The notes under the pieces were generated by a model. It worked only from the letters and a program-made list of their open reading frames with translations, was not told the DNA's origin and made no database searches. Source: Bacteroidetes bacterium HLUCCA01 (GTDB lineage: Bacteria > Bacteroidota > Rhodothermia > Balneolales > HLUCCA01). From it: 64,000 bases of DNA. Of this stretch, positions 5,590-11,871 are shown piece by piece; positions within the stretch are counted from its first letter, which is position 1, and every line of letters starts with the position of its first letter. Both the position numbers and the translations under genes were made by a program. The stretch covers positions 1 to 64,000 of the forward strand of contig LIHN01000009.1 of NCBI GenBank assembly GCA_001314545.1. Reading direction: 5' to 3'.

Positions 5590-6392
5590 TTGAAGCCGCT
5601 CTTGCAGCGGGGAAAATCATCCGGTCGTACATGGATCTGGAGATCCGTTTTCAACAAAAAGACGGGGGCAGCAATTATGCATCCCAGGTGGTCACACACG
5701 TAGACAAGGAATGCGAGGCGGAAATACTCCGGCACTTGCGACCTACCTGCGAAACGCATAACCTCGCCCTGCTCACCGAAGAAACCGATGACGATGGAAG
5801 CCGGTTTGAAAAAGACTACTTCTGGTGCATTGATCCCATCGACGGAACCCTGGCTTTCATCCGGAAAGAGCCCTGGTTTTCGGTCTCCATCGCGCTGGTA
5901 TCCCGGCAGGGTGAATCGGTGATCGGGGTGGTGTATGATCCCAGCACCGATACCCTCTACCATGGGGCTAAGGGGCACGGTGTGTACCGGAATGACAGCC
6001 CGTGGGTTGTTCCGGAGCCGAATGACTACCTGACCTACCTGACCGACAAACCCATCGATATAACGCCTCATCCGGAAGAGCTTCGGCAGCTGCTGGAGGG
6101 GACCGTAGATGCACTTGACCTTTCGGGAATGCGGGTGATTCAGGGCGGGGGATCGGTGCTGAATGCCATCCGGGTGCTGGAACATCCCCCCTCCTGTATG
6201 ATCAAACATCCCAAGAAGGAAATCGGGGGTGGCAGCATCTGGGATTTTGCTTCCACGGCCTGTCTGTTTCAGGAGCTCGGCTTCCGGGCGACCAACTTTG
6301 AGGGCGGTCCGCTGGATTTAAACCGGGAAGACAGTACGTTTATGCATCACGAGGGGGTTTACTATGCGTGTGAGCCCCGGGAAAAGGGGTAG
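5559..6392 (+). CDS. Inositol monophosphatase/CysQ-family phosphatase
   Basis: A 277-aa Mg-dependent phosphatase of the IMPase fold. Metal-binding motifs are seen: LLTEETDDDG, then CIDPIDGTLAFIRKEPWFS (DPIDGT box) and, near residue 225, GGSIWDFASTACLFQELG (WD box). The closest subgroup is CysQ/3'(2'),5'-bisphosphate nucleotidase-like, which hydrolyses PAP or inositol phosphates; the substrate cannot be fixed from the sequence. The gene is coupled to the kinase upstream through the duplicated ATGA junction. Confidence 0.8.
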   Translation: MNLLPLKQTAIEAALAAGKIIRSYMDLEIRFQQKDGGSNYASQVVTHVDKECEAEILRHLRPTCETHNLALLTEETDDDGSRFEKDYFWCIDPIDGTLAFIRKEPWFSVSIALVSRQGESVIGVVYDPSTDTLYHGAKGHGVYRNDSPWVVPEPNDYLTYLTDKPIDITPHPEELRQLLEGTVDALDLSGMRVIQGGGSVLNAIRVLEHPPSCMIKHPKKEIGGGSIWDFASTACLFQELGFRATNFEGGPLDLNREDSTFMHHEGVYYACEPREKG

Positions 6393-6420
6393 ACAGCTGG
6401 CTTTTCCGTCTCAGATTCGC

Positions 6421-6549
6421 CTACACATCCGCAACGCCCCGGCTATCAGGTACCATTACTTTATAAGTGGGGTCTTCCATGACATTGACTTCAATAATAT
6501 CCCGGGCGTTGGTCAGTAATTTGCGGCTGCACGACCACAGTTCAACCAC
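6421..6549 (-). pseudogene. Possible gene remnant in the 6393-6681 gap
   Basis: The 289-bp gap has no convincing gene. On the reverse strand a GTG-started 42-codon frame reads VVELWSCSRKLLTNARDIIE then VNVMEDPTYKVMVPDSRGVADV before a stop. The residue mix is protein-like, but there is no good start or ribosome site and I recognise no family. It may be the tail of a decayed gene or chance. Confidence 0.25.
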
Positions 6550-6681
6550 TGCAAAACCGTAACATTATTTGACATTCTTGTGCCGATATTGCTTTGTACT
6601 ATGCCCGTTCGTTGGTAAACTTAACACTAAGTAATATCATCTACAGCTCCTGTCTTTGGCTGAAACCGCATTCGCACTACC

Positions 6682-8043
6682 ATGAATCTAGCTACACGCT
6701 TCCTGGGTTTAGCAACCCTGTTATTTCTCATCAACGCTGCATGCCTGTCAGCCCAGGACAAGGTTGTAAAAGGCTATTATATGTATTGGTCGAAGTCGAC
6801 CCTGCCGGCCTCCCAGGTTCCGTGGGATGACCTTACCCACCTGGCGTATGCCTTTATCTGGCCGGATGCCAACGGCAACCTGGTAACCAGTCAGGCCGAA
6901 CATCCCGAAATGATACAACGGGCACATGATGAGGGCGTGCTGCCGATTATTTCTGTAGGTGGATGGGGGCAAAGTGACGCCTTTCCGGCCATTGCAGCCG
7001 ACTCCGTGCTGCGGGCTCGGTTCATCGGCAACCTGGTTGACTATGTGGTATCGAAGGGATATGGTGGGATTGATCTGGATTGGGAATATCCGGCTGCAGG
7101 CGACCGCGACAACCTTACGGTGCTGGTGCGCGAGCTGCGTGAAGCTCTGGACGAGCTGCCGGATGCCTATGAACTTTCCATGGCCATGCCATCGGTCGAC
7201 TGGCGGAATGGGTACAATGTGTTTGCGCTGAACCAGTACGTTGACTGGTTCGGGTTGATGACCTATGATTTTCATGGCTCCTGGACCAACCGCGCCGGGC
7301 ACAATTCCCCTTTGTTTGCTCCGTCCAACTCCCAATGCAACACGGGTTCCATTCACCAAAGTGTGCAGCATTACCGTCAAAAGGGTCTGCCCCGCAATAA
7401 AATTGTAGTCGGACTGGCCAGTTATGGTCGCCAGTTTAATGCGGGTGTACTGTGCGGTGTGGTGTCCAGTACAACCGGTAACGGGGCGGCCGTGCCCTAC
7501 CACGAAGCCATGCGCCGGATAGACAACGGCTGGACCCGGGAATGGGATCCGGTCAGTCAGGGAGTGTATCTGTTGAATCCCGATTCCACCCGCATTGTAA
7601 CCTTTGATGACAGCACCACCTTTCGTCTGAAGGCGGATTACATCGTTGATAATGAGCTGCGTGGTGCCATGGTCTGGGCCCTTGGCTACGACCGCATCGA
7701 CGCGCGGCATCCGCTGATGCATGAATTAGGGACCTTACATAACAGGACCGTCAGCGTAGCGGAATCGACCGAGCTTCCGGCATCCGTTGAACTCCTGCCT
7801 AATTATCCCAATCCGTTCAATCCCGTAACAACCCTATCCTACCGTTTATCGGAAGCTGGTACCGTGCAATTGGCGGTCTACGATCCCCTGGGCCGGGAGC
7901 TGGCGGTACTCGTGAATGGAAACCGTCCGGCCGGACTCCATTCGGTTCGGTTTGACGCCGGTCAACTGGCCGGAGGGGTCTATTTTTACAAACTGCGTTT
8001 CAACGGAGAAACGCTGACCGGGAAAATGATGCTCATGAAGTAG
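6682..8043 (+). CDS. Secreted GH18 chitinase-like protein with T9SS sorting domain
   Basis: A 453-aa protein: signal peptide (ending CLSAQ), a GH18 barrel (about 28-355) and a C-terminal type A sorting domain of the type IX secretion system (about 370-453, with NYPNPFNPVTTLSY and ending GKMMLMK). GH18 landmarks are SVGGWGQS, GGIDLDWEYP with the catalytic Glu, MTYDFHGSW and the barrel-closing Trp in GAMVWALGYD. The first Asp of the usual DxxDxDxE motif is Gly here. Likely role is breakdown of chitin or related glycans, exported across the outer membrane and attached to the surface or released. The gene stands alone. Confidence 0.88.
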   Translation: MNLATRFLGLATLLFLINAACLSAQDKVVKGYYMYWSKSTLPASQVPWDDLTHLAYAFIWPDANGNLVTSQAEHPEMIQRAHDEGVLPIISVGGWGQSDAFPAIAADSVLRARFIGNLVDYVVSKGYGGIDLDWEYPAAGDRDNLTVLVRELREALDELPDAYELSMAMPSVDWRNGYNVFALNQYVDWFGLMTYDFHGSWTNRAGHNSPLFAPSNSQCNTGSIHQSVQHYRQKGLPRNKIVVGLASYGRQFNAGVLCGVVSSTTGNGAAVPYHEAMRRIDNGWTREWDPVSQGVYLLNPDSTRIVTFDDSTTFRLKADYIVDNELRGAMVWALGYDRIDARHPLMHELGTLHNRTVSVAESTELPASVELLPNYPNPFNPVTTLSYRLSEAGTVQLAVYDPLGRELAVLVNGNRPAGLHSVRFDAGQLAGGVYFYKLRFNGETLTGKMMLMK

Positions 8044-8224
8044 CTTTTTGCCGTTGAGAATGCTACTATACTACGGCACCTGTGTTTTCCGTGTGTACCT
8101 ACCGGACATTGACCATGAACGACTTGCGGTCATGGCTGCCGCCTGCGATGGCGCTGGTCCGGTAGCATCCTGAGGTTGACTCATGTGCTTCAGCAACCCA
8201 TTTGAACCAAGAAACTCAGCACCT

Positions 8225-8944
8225 ATGAGCACCAGCAAAGATAATGGAATCGGATTCATCGGCATTGGCCTGATTGTCGGGCTTACCATTTTTGGATTTT
8301 TCCTGAATAGTGCGGTAAAAACGTACCGAAGTTTTGACCGAACCGTCACTGTACGGGGCCTGGCGGAGCAGGAACATCTGGCTGATGTAGTCATCTGGCC
8401 CATTCAGTTTACCCAGGCCAGCAACAGCCAGGAAGAAATTTATCGCCTCCTGGATGATGGTGCCCAGCGTGTTGTAACCTTTCTGAAGGAAAACGGCCTT
8501 GATGACACCGAAATTTCGGTGGATGTACCTTCGGTCACCGACCGGTCGGCACAACGATGGGGCGGTGAAGCGGCACCGGTATTTCGTTATGTCGGTTCTC
8601 AGTCGGTTACCGTGTATTCTACCCAGGTTGAGCAGATACGGGAAGTGATGACCCGGATCGGCTCTTTAGGCAGACAGGGGGTTATCATCTCGGCAGAAGA
8701 CTATCAGTATCGGGTAGAGTATCTGTTTACCCGTTTGAATGAAATTAAGCCGGTGATGATTGAAGAGGCTACCATGGAGGCCCGCAAAGTTGCCGAAAAG
8801 TTTGCAGAAGATTCGGATAGCAGGTTGGGAAAAATCAAGACCGCCTCACAGGGACAGTTTGCCATTACCAATCGGGACATGAACAATCCGCATATCAAGA
8901 AGGTGCGTGTGGTGTCCACCATCGTGTATTATCTGACCGACTGA
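8225..8944 (+). CDS. SIMPL (DUF541) domain protein, membrane-anchored
   Basis: A 239-aa protein. Residues about 9-28 form one transmembrane segment (IGFIGIGLIVGLTIFGFFL), followed by a SIMPL/DUF541 domain: RTVTVRGLAEQEHLADVVIW, conserved TDRSAQRWGG, and the end MEARKVAEKFAEDSDSRLGK, then VRVVSTIVYYL. SIMPL proteins are periplasmic or surface proteins of poorly known function, some linked to oxidative stress. ATG 8225 is chosen because it directly precedes the membrane segment; the frame is open from 8183. The 180 bp upstream hold no gene. Confidence 0.82.
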   Translation: MSTSKDNGIGFIGIGLIVGLTIFGFFLNSAVKTYRSFDRTVTVRGLAEQEHLADVVIWPIQFTQASNSQEEIYRLLDDGAQRVVTFLKENGLDDTEISVDVPSVTDRSAQRWGGEAAPVFRYVGSQSVTVYSTQVEQIREVMTRIGSLGRQGVIISAEDYQYRVEYLFTRLNEIKPVMIEEATMEARKVAEKFAEDSDSRLGKIKTASQGQFAITNRDMNNPHIKKVRVVSTIVYYLTD

Positions 8945-8954
8945 GCCATAATGG

Positions 8955-9145
8955 CAAAAGCCGGACGCGTCGGTGGTACAGGCAGAGCCACGCCGGATGC
9001 GGGTGCCCGCTACGCTGAGCAAAAAGCCGGACGCAGCGGTGGTACAGGCAGAGCTACGCCGGATGCCGGCGTCCGCTACGTTGAGCAAAAAGCCGGACGC
9101 ATCGGTGGAACAGGCAGAACTACGCCTGATGCGGGTGCCCGCCGG
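8955..9145 (+). repeat. 66-bp GC-rich tandem repeat, nearly three units
   Basis: The unit starting AAGCCGGACGC recurs with its GCCGG at 8960, 9026 and 9092, exactly 66 bp apart. Each copy contains a small palindrome (GCGGGTGCCCGC or GCCGGCGTCCGC) and the block ACGCCGGATGC or close to it. The DNA is open in frame (22-aa repeats of KAGRxGGTGRxTPDAG), but that frame has no protein-like partner and runs into the promoter of the next gene, so I treat it as an intergenic repeat. Related blocks appear near 45641 and 54553. Confidence 0.8.
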
Positions 9146-9237
9146 AAAATCCACAGGCATACGCACTTGCAGCCCCTGAAAGCAGCGCTATACACCCGAA
9201 TGATTGCGTTTTTGAGGGCGGGGCCAAATATCAGTCT

Positions 9238-9283
9238 AACATTCAATAAAAATATTGAATGTTATTCCGCGACTTTCTATATT
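9238..9283 (+). promoter_or_regulatory. ArsR-type operator palindrome and overlapping promoter
   Basis: AACATTCAATA (9238-9248) and TATTGAATGTT (9253-9263) are a perfect 11-bp inverted repeat with an AAAA centre, the typical ArsR/SmtB operator shape. TTGAAT (9255-9260) and TATATT (9278-9283) are separated by 17 bp and could be the -35 and -10 elements, so a bound repressor would cover the -35. The ATG at 9307 encodes an ArsR protein, hence autoregulation is likely. Confidence 0.75.
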
Positions 9284-9306
9284 CGATGTGTATCAACCAC
9301 CCATAT

Positions 9307-11286
9307 ATGAAATCGCGCGACGTAAAAACGGCTCTCTACAAAGAAGCAGCCTCGGTCACCAAGGCCCTGGCCAATCCCCATCGCCTGGAAATTCTGGATT
9401 TACTGGCGCAGGGAGCGGTATCGGTGGAGTACATTGCCGAGCAAACGCGGATGCCCGTTGCCAATGCTTCACAGCATTTGCAGGTGCTGCGCAAGGCCGG
9501 AATAGCCGTTGTTGAACGACGGGGCAAATACAGCTTTTACCGCCTGGCTGGCAGGCAGGTATACGATGTCTGGCATTCGCTTCGGAATCTGGGTTTTGCC
9601 CAAAACCGGCAGGCACAGGAGCTGTTAGACAGCTACCATCGGGAGCGGACCGACCTGCGCATATTGCCTGCGCGTGAATTTGCGCAGAAACTCGGCAATG
9701 AAAAACTCATCATTCTGGATGTTCGACCAGACGAAGAATATCAGATCAGCCACATCCGTGGAGCCATATCCATGCAGGCAGACCGGATCCACGACTATCT
9801 GGAGACCGTTCCGGACGGAGCTGAAATTGTGGCGTACTGCCGGGGCCCAATGTGTATGATGGCCGATACGGTAGTGCAGCAGCTGAACCAGCGTGGACAT
9901 CAGGCCTGGAGGCTCGACATCGGCGTTGCCGAGTGCGCGTACTATGGAATTGCCGTAGACCACGACCCGGAGCAGGGTTGTCTGGAAAGTCCGGCCTCTT
10001 CGGAATTGAACGACCAGCAGTCCGCAATGCCTGCTCAAGTCACAAGCGTTGCTGCAGATGCAGCCCCAACCGAATCATTTTTGCAACAAAACAAAACAAT
10101 CGATCAACACAATAACATGGAGAACGTGATGGAACATACAATTTTAGTACTCGGCGGCGGCATAGGCGGATTATGTGCAGCCCGTGAACTCAGTGCGCAG
10201 CTCGGCAATGAAGACGATGCCCGTGTAGCCCGTATTCTGGTCTTTGAAAAGGAACAGAAAAGCACCTACTCCCCTTCGCTGACCTGGCTGATGGTGGGTA
10301 AACGCAAGGAATGGCAGATAGAACGTGAGCTGAGCTCCACCTCCGGAGCCGGAATCGAGTTTATTTTCGGTCAAATTGAGCATGTGGATCCGGCCGAATT
10401 AACGGTTACCTCCGCAGGCACCACCTACAAAGGAACCCATATGGTGGTTTCACTGGGTGTACAGCAGGTTATTGAACAAAAACTTGATACGTTCGGACAC
10501 AACTTTTACACCATCGACGGGGCTAAGAATTTTCATGACAATCTTATACACTATAAAGGTGGCAATCTGGTAGTGATGGTCTCGTCATTGCCGTACAAGT
10601 CGCCGGTGGCCCCGTACGAGGCCGCGATGCTGCTGGACAGCTACCTTCGCGAGCATGATATCCGTGATGCATCCACCATTACGCTGGTCACTCCGGAAGA
10701 CGAACCCATGCCCTTTGCCGGTGATGAAGTTACCCGAAACATCGTGGAGCTGATGAAAGAACGCGGAATTACCTACCTGCCCGGCCATCATTTCTCCAGT
10801 GCCTCGGAAGGTAAACTGACCTTCACCACGTCCGATGGAAATACGGCCGAAGTTCCCTTCGACCTGCTCGCTTTCACACCAAAACATGAGGCCCCGCAGG
10901 TCATCCGCGAGGCCGGACTCACCGGCGAATCGGGTTGGGTTGAAGTAGACCGCCAGTCGCTGAAAACCGGTTTCGAAAACGTCTATGCCATTGGCGACAT
11001 CACCACCATTCCGCTGGATGGCAACGAAAAATTGCCCAAAGCCGGTGTTTTCGCGCAATTTCAGGCACACATTGTGGCGCACCACATCACGCGCGGCATC
11101 TATGGCAAGACTCCTGAGAAGGTTTTTGACGCCGAGGGCAACTATATTCTGGATCTGGGCGATGGAAAGGCACGGAAGGTTGGCGGTAATTTCTACGATG
11201 ACGAGGTCAATATCAACAATGCGGGTGTAATGACCCAGTGGATGAAGCAATTGCAGGAGAAATCCTGGTTTGCGAAAAACTTTTAA
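9307..11286 (+). CDS. ArsR repressor - rhodanese - SQR-like flavoprotein fusion
   Basis: A single 659-aa frame. Residues about 8-90: ArsR winged helix (ALANPHRLEILDLLAQGAVS, then VANASQHLQVLRKAGIAVVE). About 115-215: rhodanese with the loop YCRGPMCMMAD holding Cys178 and Cys183. About 216-273: a linker. About 275-659: FAD/NAD(P) oxidoreductase of the sulfide:quinone reductase-like group (ILVLGGGIGGLCAAREL; NVYAIGDIT for FAD). ArsR-rhodanese proteins are known one-component regulators; here the flavoenzyme is joined on. The flavoprotein half has only one Cys, in the nucleotide loop; where relatives have a Cys before PxAPYE this one has Ser433. A second start with its own GGAG lies at ATG 10129. 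I begin at ATG 9307 because the frame start at 9259 lies in the operator. The DsrE gene follows 20 bp later. Confidence 0.88.
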   Translation: MKSRDVKTALYKEAASVTKALANPHRLEILDLLAQGAVSVEYIAEQTRMPVANASQHLQVLRKAGIAVVERRGKYSFYRLAGRQVYDVWHSLRNLGFAQNRQAQELLDSYHRERTDLRILPAREFAQKLGNEKLIILDVRPDEEYQISHIRGAISMQADRIHDYLETVPDGAEIVAYCRGPMCMMADTVVQQLNQRGHQAWRLDIGVAECAYYGIAVDHDPEQGCLESPASSELNDQQSAMPAQVTSVAADAAPTESFLQQNKTIDQHNNMENVMEHTILVLGGGIGGLCAARELSAQLGNEDDARVARILVFEKEQKSTYSPSLTWLMVGKRKEWQIERELSSTSGAGIEFIFGQIEHVDPAELTVTSAGTTYKGTHMVVSLGVQQVIEQKLDTFGHNFYTIDGAKNFHDNLIHYKGGNLVVMVSSLPYKSPVAPYEAAMLLDSYLREHDIRDASTITLVTPEDEPMPFAGDEVTRNIVELMKERGITYLPGHHFSSASEGKLTFTTSDGNTAEVPFDLLAFTPKHEAPQVIREAGLTGESGWVEVDRQSLKTGFENVYAIGDITTIPLDGNEKLPKAGVFAQFQAHIVAHHITRGIYGKTPEKVFDAEGNYILDLGDGKARKVGGNFYDDEVNINNAGVMTQWMKQLQEKSWFAKNF

Positions 11287-11306
11287 TCTAATAAGGAAAC
11301 AATACC

Positions 11307-11747
11307 ATGAAAAAACCAATGATAGTTCTTGGCGCCCTGACCATGATGCTGATGATAGCAACAGGTACCGCCGTGCAGGCGCAGGAATCGGATGAAACCC
11401 TGTTTGTGATGATTACCACCGGTGACGCAGAAACCCAGATGATGGCGATGGTGCTGGCAACGCAGTCGGCCAATCAGGGCGCTGACGTGCGCATTCTGCT
11501 GTGCGGCGACGGTGGGTATCTGGCTGTGAAAGGACATGAAGCCCCCTCGTTTGCGCCGGCTGGTCGTACACCGGTACAACTCATGGCCGGATTGATGGAG
11601 CGTGGGGCTACCGTGGAGGTGTGCGGCATTTTCCTGCCGAACCGCGAACTGACATCCGATGACCTGCTGGATGGCGTAACGGCTGCCGCTCCGCCTGAGG
11701 TTGCCACATTTATGCGCCGACCTGACGTTCGATTATTTACGTTTTAG
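11307..11747 (+). CDS. Exported DsrE-family protein
   Basis: A 146-aa protein: signal peptide (about 1-26, ending AVQAQ) and a DsrE/DsrF-like sulfur-carrier domain. Two cysteines are placed as in that family: ILLCGDGGYL and EVCGIFLPNRELT. DsrE-like proteins bind or pass persulfide sulfur; the signal peptide puts this one in the periplasm. It lies 20 bp after the ArsR-rhodanese-flavoprotein gene with an AAGGA ribosome site and is almost certainly in its operon, which would place it under the same sulfur-responsive control. It ends in front of a hairpin at 11762. Confidence 0.82.
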   Translation: MKKPMIVLGALTMMLMIATGTAVQAQESDETLFVMITTGDAETQMMAMVLATQSANQGADVRILLCGDGGYLAVKGHEAPSFAPAGRTPVQLMAGLMERGATVEVCGIFLPNRELTSDDLLDGVTAAAPPEVATFMRRPDVRLFTF

Positions 11748-11761
11748 ACGTTGATGCGGGT

Positions 11762-11796
11762 AACAGCTGCCTTCGATTCACCCGGGGGCAGCTGTT
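11762..11796. terminator. Hairpin between the sulfur operon and the convergent EEP gene
   Basis: AACAGCTGCC (11762-11771) and GGCAGCTGTT (11787-11796) are perfect complements around a 15-nt loop. There is no long U-run, so terminator strength is uncertain. It sits where the operon ends and a convergent gene's stop lies at 11872. Confidence 0.5.
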
Positions 11797-11871
11797 GGTG
11801 ACTTTTGCCTGCTGAAAAAGCACACCATGGTACCCGTTCTTCGGCATCGATCCAACGACCACCAGCTGTCT

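Follow-up and report, generated by a model that had tools for sequence, protein, structure and literature searches.

A conserved putative operator, an SQR-fold flavoprotein lacking both catalytic cysteines, and a possible stop-codon loss in an ArsR-rhodanese operon of HLUCCA01

The locus described here is best read, with moderate confidence, as an autorepressed ArsR-rhodanese operon that carries a paralogue of SQR without its catalytic cysteines and an exported DsrE-like protein, and in which the regulator and the flavoprotein have been fused by the loss of a stop codon in this genome. It lies in a stretch of 64,000 nt from Bacteroidetes bacterium HLUCCA01 that was analysed as a whole (the window). 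The reading is built on the sequence itself, the conservation of an operator, the linkage of the genes, the loss of cysteines, and a stop-codon difference from a congener (G002). ArsR-rhodanese operons are already known as loci of the reactive-sulfur or redox response, and we regard the loss of both SQR cysteines throughout the clade as a more interesting result than the fusion. The features of the locus are as follows.

9237–9264, no strand: operator palindrome TAACATTCAATA-AAAA-TATTGAATGTTA with perfect 12-bp arms (pattern search of window and genome, conservation)
9240–9261, no strand: operator core CATTCAATA-N4-TATTGAATG, conserved upstream of Balneolota operons
9255–9283, forward: predicted promoter, -35 TTGAAT 9255–9260, 17 nt, -10 TATATT 9278–9283 (consensus match and position relative to the operator)
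9307–11286, forward: fused ORF of 659 aa, ArsR-rhodanese plus SQR-fold flavoprotein (ORF reading, Pfam)
9307–9606, forward: ArsR winged-helix domain, residues 1–100, without Cys (Pfam, comparison with XfBigR)
9670–9930, forward: rhodanese domain, residues 122–208, with Cys178 (9838–9840) and Cys183 (9853–9855) in CRGPMC (Pfam, alignments)
9973–9975, forward: CAG codon (Gln223), in gap-free alignment with TAG, the stop codon in the congener
9976–10128, forward: 51-codon linker, the former intergenic spacer (congener alignment, codon score)
10119–10131, forward: retained start of the flavoprotein, GGAG 10119–10122, 6 nt, ATG 10129 (congener alignment)
10129–11286, forward: SQR-fold flavoprotein, catalytic Cys positions occupied by Ser (10600–10602) and Tyr (11143–11145) (profile alignment, structure model)
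11307–11747, forward: exported DsrE-like protein with signal peptide, Cys66 and Cys106 (Pfam, alignment)
11761–11797, forward: terminator-like hairpin of 15 pairs after the DsrE gene (5 such hairpins found, 3.3 expected)

One open frame on the forward strand spans 9259–11286. Because its first ATG sits in the right arm of the palindrome, upstream of the predicted transcription start, ATG 9307 (MKSRD..., 659 codons) is the likely translation start, and the N-terminus so defined agrees with those of the orthologues in alignment. Pfam places HTH_20/HTH_5 at residues 21–69, Rhodanese at residues 122–208 (E 6e-12), and Pyr_redox_2 at residues 278–570 (E 6e-17). A first-pass annotation of this DNA had described ArsR, rhodanese, and SQR-like parts in a single frame, with cysteines at 178 and 183, and the ORF and its domains bear this out.

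An N-terminal ArsR HTH followed by a C-terminal rhodanese is the domain layout of ArsR-rhodanese regulators, and both domains are found here. The CX4C pair of the rhodanese (CRGPxC; Cys178 and Cys183) is invariant in 20 aligned Balneolota regulators and is also present in a cross-phylum set of 27 paired loci. In the persulfide-sensing SqrR/BigR family, the rule is a cysteine in each of helices alpha2 and alpha5 (PMC10509353). That pair was sought in the ArsR domain of the window protein and is absent, the XfBigR cysteines aligning with D31 and F97. Therefore, sensing of the SqrR/BigR type is unavailable, and the rhodanese cysteines would have to do any sensing; the invariance of CX4C makes Cys178/Cys183 the likely sensing site. 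The window protein thus shares with SqrR/BigR repressors the ArsR fold and a sulfur-related gene context but not their alpha2/alpha5 pair. With ArsR-rhodanese regulators it shares both domains, the CX4C motif, a palindrome that by sequence and conservation appears autoregulatory, and DsrE and SQR-type neighbours, whereas the C-terminal extension into the flavoprotein frame is found in the HLUCCA01 genome alone. Among solved structures, the chain most similar to the ArsR domain is 2kko, a mycobacterial ArsR protein of the Rv0324 type, a type that likewise bears a rhodanese domain.

The operator pattern occurs once in the window, where none is expected from shuffles, and once in the whole genome. 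The predicted -35 falls within its right arm, although promoter-type consensus matches as such are no more frequent than expected (2 found, 2.2 expected). Upstream of the first gene of the operon, CATTCAA-N8-TTGAATG with at most two mismatches is present in 20/23 Balneolota loci, the regions being those upstream of ArsR-rhodanese operons or, where the flavoprotein is the first gene, upstream of the flavoprotein. In 200 shuffles the mean count was 0.035 and the maximum 1. In several loci the core occurs twice, and its distance from the start is mostly no more than about 110 nt. If a gene other than ArsR-rhodanese leads the operon, the operator is found ahead of that gene instead. This conservation is strong evidence that the motif would act as an operator and that the ArsR-rhodanese operon is autoregulated, in keeping with the earlier claims of a perfect palindrome over the promoter and of a system that sets its own level. 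It is reasoned that a dimer of the ArsR domain binds CATTCAATA-N4-TATTGAATG over the -35 and would thereby block transcription, and that modification of Cys178/Cys183 by sulfane sulfur or oxidants would release the repressor.

The same unit of operator and ArsR-rhodanese gene stands directly before RND efflux genes of the OEP/HlyD/AcrB type in several Balneolota (L044, L045, L046, L039, L049, L050, L051; the Pfam basis covers L044 and part of the others). Since the unit also precedes efflux genes, the inducing signal may not be sulfide alone and need not be specific to sulfur. Just 5' of the operon in the window lies a tandem repeat (8956–9142; 2.8 copies of a 66-bp unit with 88% matches), which would encode KAGRxGGTGRxTPDAGxRYxEQ units in a short unsupported ORF.

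The flavoprotein has the SQR/FCSD fold with an FAD-binding Rossmann motif, as seen with Pfam and in a structure model (pLDDT 92, from 42 homologues). The best structure matches of the model are SQRs (TM 0.90 to 3hyv, the A. aeolicus SQR), and the modelled fold ends in a C-terminal helix resembling that of membrane-bound SQRs. A profile alignment pairs two Cys columns of the family with those cysteines that are catalytic in human SQOR and in A. aeolicus SQR. The first (KCAGAP in human SQOR, SCFGP in A. aeolicus) is Ser in 15/15 Balneolota proteins and Cys in 39/39 relatives outside the group. The second, on the C-terminal strand (SCPLVTG and ICIADFG, respectively), is Tyr in 15/15 Balneolota and again Cys in 39/39 outside. 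The Balneolota flavoproteins form one clade (support 100/100) on a long stem of 0.96 changes per site. KCPAAPYE is retained in G352, the nearest of the outgroups covered, with 47% identity. The sole cysteine remaining in the flavoprotein lies in the Rossmann loop.

With both catalytic cysteines absent, sulfur processing of the SQR kind is not supported, and sulfide oxidation by the Ser/Tyr protein appears unlikely. By eye, the NDH-2-type GxGxxG of the NAD site is absent from the corresponding place, so that oxidation of NADH does not readily offer itself as an alternative. The best profile match of the flavoprotein is NF049943, the nearest named model (type III SQR, selenoprotein subtype), with 185.9 bits, which is below the cut-off of 525. 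The two have in common the fold, the FAD motif, and the C-terminal helix but differ in that the Balneolota clade carries Ser/Tyr for both catalytic cysteines and that the window copy is in frame with a regulator. Annotation would name such a protein sulfide:quinone oxidoreductase and thus credit the whole group with a sulfide oxidation that it probably cannot perform by this protein. A clade of cysteine-less SQR-fold proteins next to a rhodanese-bearing repressor raises the testable question of whether the fold serves here in redox signalling and not in catalysis. Gene linkage and this one fusion suggest that the flavoprotein is probably not a sulfide oxidase but serves, through its flavin, as redox partner to the regulator or to some electron carrier.

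The DsrE-like gene begins 20 nt past the flavoprotein stop and scores 33.5 bits against Pfam DsrE (cut-off 22.7, E 5e-8). Its product has a signal peptide recognised by eye, and it is the only DsrE of the genome; the exported DsrE-like protein 20 bp downstream, as first annotated, is thus upheld. The protein shares with the DsrE/TusD sulfurtransferases the fold family and, by sequence, the conserved position of Cys106, whereas it differs in its signal peptide and in reading CGIF where cytoplasmic relatives have CGxC. The hairpin at 11761–11797 would close a two-gene transcription unit.

Beyond HLUCCA01, 27 loci from different phyla have a separate ArsR-rhodanese gene ahead of the flavoprotein gene and in the same orientation, and DsrE often lies between the two. 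In several other phyla (among them Actinobacteria, Chloroflexota, Bacillota, and Proteobacteria), separate genes for ArsR-rhodanese, DsrE, and a cysteine-containing type III SQR-like protein are grouped. The Balneolota locus, in which DsrE is exported, derives from this arrangement. The first-pass annotation had proposed a sensor and processor of reactive sulfur. The sensor part gains from the CX4C-bearing ArsR-rhodanese and from the grouping of DsrE with an SQR fold across phyla, but the processing part does not survive the loss of both SQR cysteines.

Whether ArsR-rhodanese and the flavoprotein are fused is decided by the single codon CAG at 9973–9975. In the congener the two genes are 218 nt apart. 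The linker has a codon score of 0.05 bits per codon, which is equalled or exceeded by 41% of stop-free non-coding windows, and by this score it is not distinguishable from stop-free non-coding DNA; a first codon-usage test had indicated that the linker is coding, but the signal vanishes against such windows and the result was dropped. A window of 51 codons is open by chance in 13% of cases for intergenic DNA and in 19% for out-of-frame windows overall. The ribosome site and start of the congener flavoprotein, AGGAAACAACGTG-ATG, match GGAGAACGTG-ATG at 10119–10131, and the flavoprotein is probably still able to start at its own ATG 10129.

The idea of a dedicated three-part protein is not supported, as no second fusion was found among the homologues. 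Where both proteins occur, they are always separate among 98 relatives, in 394 genomes of the phylum, and in 69 loci from an alignment-based scan of 84,980 species. None of 227 plasmid records covers 80% of the fused query, and no relatives were found among viral contigs. The annotation had named two findings that would count against it, namely homologues that are always split and no protein of the fused size; as to the former, every homologue found in the Balneolota and other phyla is split. Open frames in two Balneolota genomes (G070, 650 aa; G072, 647 aa) had looked like further fusions and were rejected because the two genes are separated by a TAA in frame. L076, L100, L103, and L128 have long ORFs as well, but with over-extended starts and no ArsR or rhodanese sequence, and these too were set aside.

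The fusion could have arisen by a genuine and recent loss of the stop, or it could reflect an error in a single base; as an event in one genome it needs confirmation. An error of sequencing or assembly that turned TAG into CAG, with the organism making two ordinary proteins, is the most plausible of the competing accounts, though still doubtful. It fits the facts that all homologues are split, that one codon decides, that openness is the only coding signature of the linker, and that G070 and G072 have the two genes likewise in frame, one TAA short of fusion. On the other hand, the assembly is good (22 contigs, 98% complete) with base errors expected to be rare, and the frame is unbroken although the spacer differs in length from that of the congener. 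A decaying remnant is less likely again. Here the VKOR gene and a cysteine-containing SQOR-like gene would have been lost, and the fusion would be a neutral step, the loss of a stop, in a locus that is itself disappearing. Relative to G002, the window locus is indeed compacted and lacks the VKOR and Tat-type SQOR-like genes, while the same convergent Exo_endo_phos gene flanks both loci. A search of the HLUCCA01 genome found neither gene, apart from one distant VKOR-like match on another contig, and no other SQR. Yet the operator is perfect and every domain intact, and of 87 positions that do not vary among the other Balneolota flavoproteins, the window copy differs at 5 and G002 at 3, with no clear relaxation.

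An improbable but more far-reaching account holds that the fused chain is an autogenous flavorepressor. The SQR-type flavoprotein of the Balneolota would have lost both cysteines once and become the redox partner of ArsR-rhodanese; in this genome its half of the chain would dock on the membrane quinone pool, with the quinone or flavin state controlling DNA binding by the ArsR half. The open fused frame, the fusion of genes that are paired across phyla, which suggests physical interaction, and the modelled helix of the membrane-bound SQR kind are consistent with it. Against it stand the lack of conservation of the fusion, the retained start of the flavoprotein, and a linker without visible coding constraint; also, we know of no electron donor for a cysteine-less SQR fold. 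The precedent would be trifunctional PutA, an autogenous flavoenzyme-repressor of its own operon (PMC5293562), so that an enzyme repressing its own gene is not in itself new and the conceptual novelty implied by the annotation is not supported. What the two would share is the concept of a flavoenzyme that is joined to a DNA-binding domain and represses the operon encoding it, but the domains of PutA are unrelated (RHH, proline dehydrogenase) and the likeness is one of analogy only. Should the fused protein be produced, PutA would be joined by another, independent flavoenzyme acting in this way. For an ArsR-rhodanese/SQR pair or fusion, no description was found in a search of open papers, which misses most subscription ones. 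The original model, in which a single chain both senses reactive sulfur and, through SQR chemistry, oxidises it, is very hard to sustain. The domain content and the SQR fold speak for it, but both catalytic cysteines are replaced, the only other cysteine of the flavoprotein is the one in the Rossmann loop, and the rhodanese cysteines could substitute only from another domain. The autorepressed operon fused by stop loss remains the preferred reading.

Other Balneolota loci show further arrangements of these genes. In several operons, a second, Tat-type SQOR-like flavoprotein keeps the cysteines of KCGGAP and SGCPLL and adjoins a VKOR protein. In L052 (G002; 9366–10733 and 8140–8679), and also in L054, L057, L058, L059, and L062, the cysteine-less SQR paralogue is followed by VKOR and the Tat-type SQOR-like gene, and two SQR-fold proteins of opposite cysteine state thus stand side by side. 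In L048 (G009; 6015–7099), ArsR-rhodanese heads a series of DsrE, methyltransferase, and MFS transporter genes, next to a hemerythrin-type ScdA_N protein.
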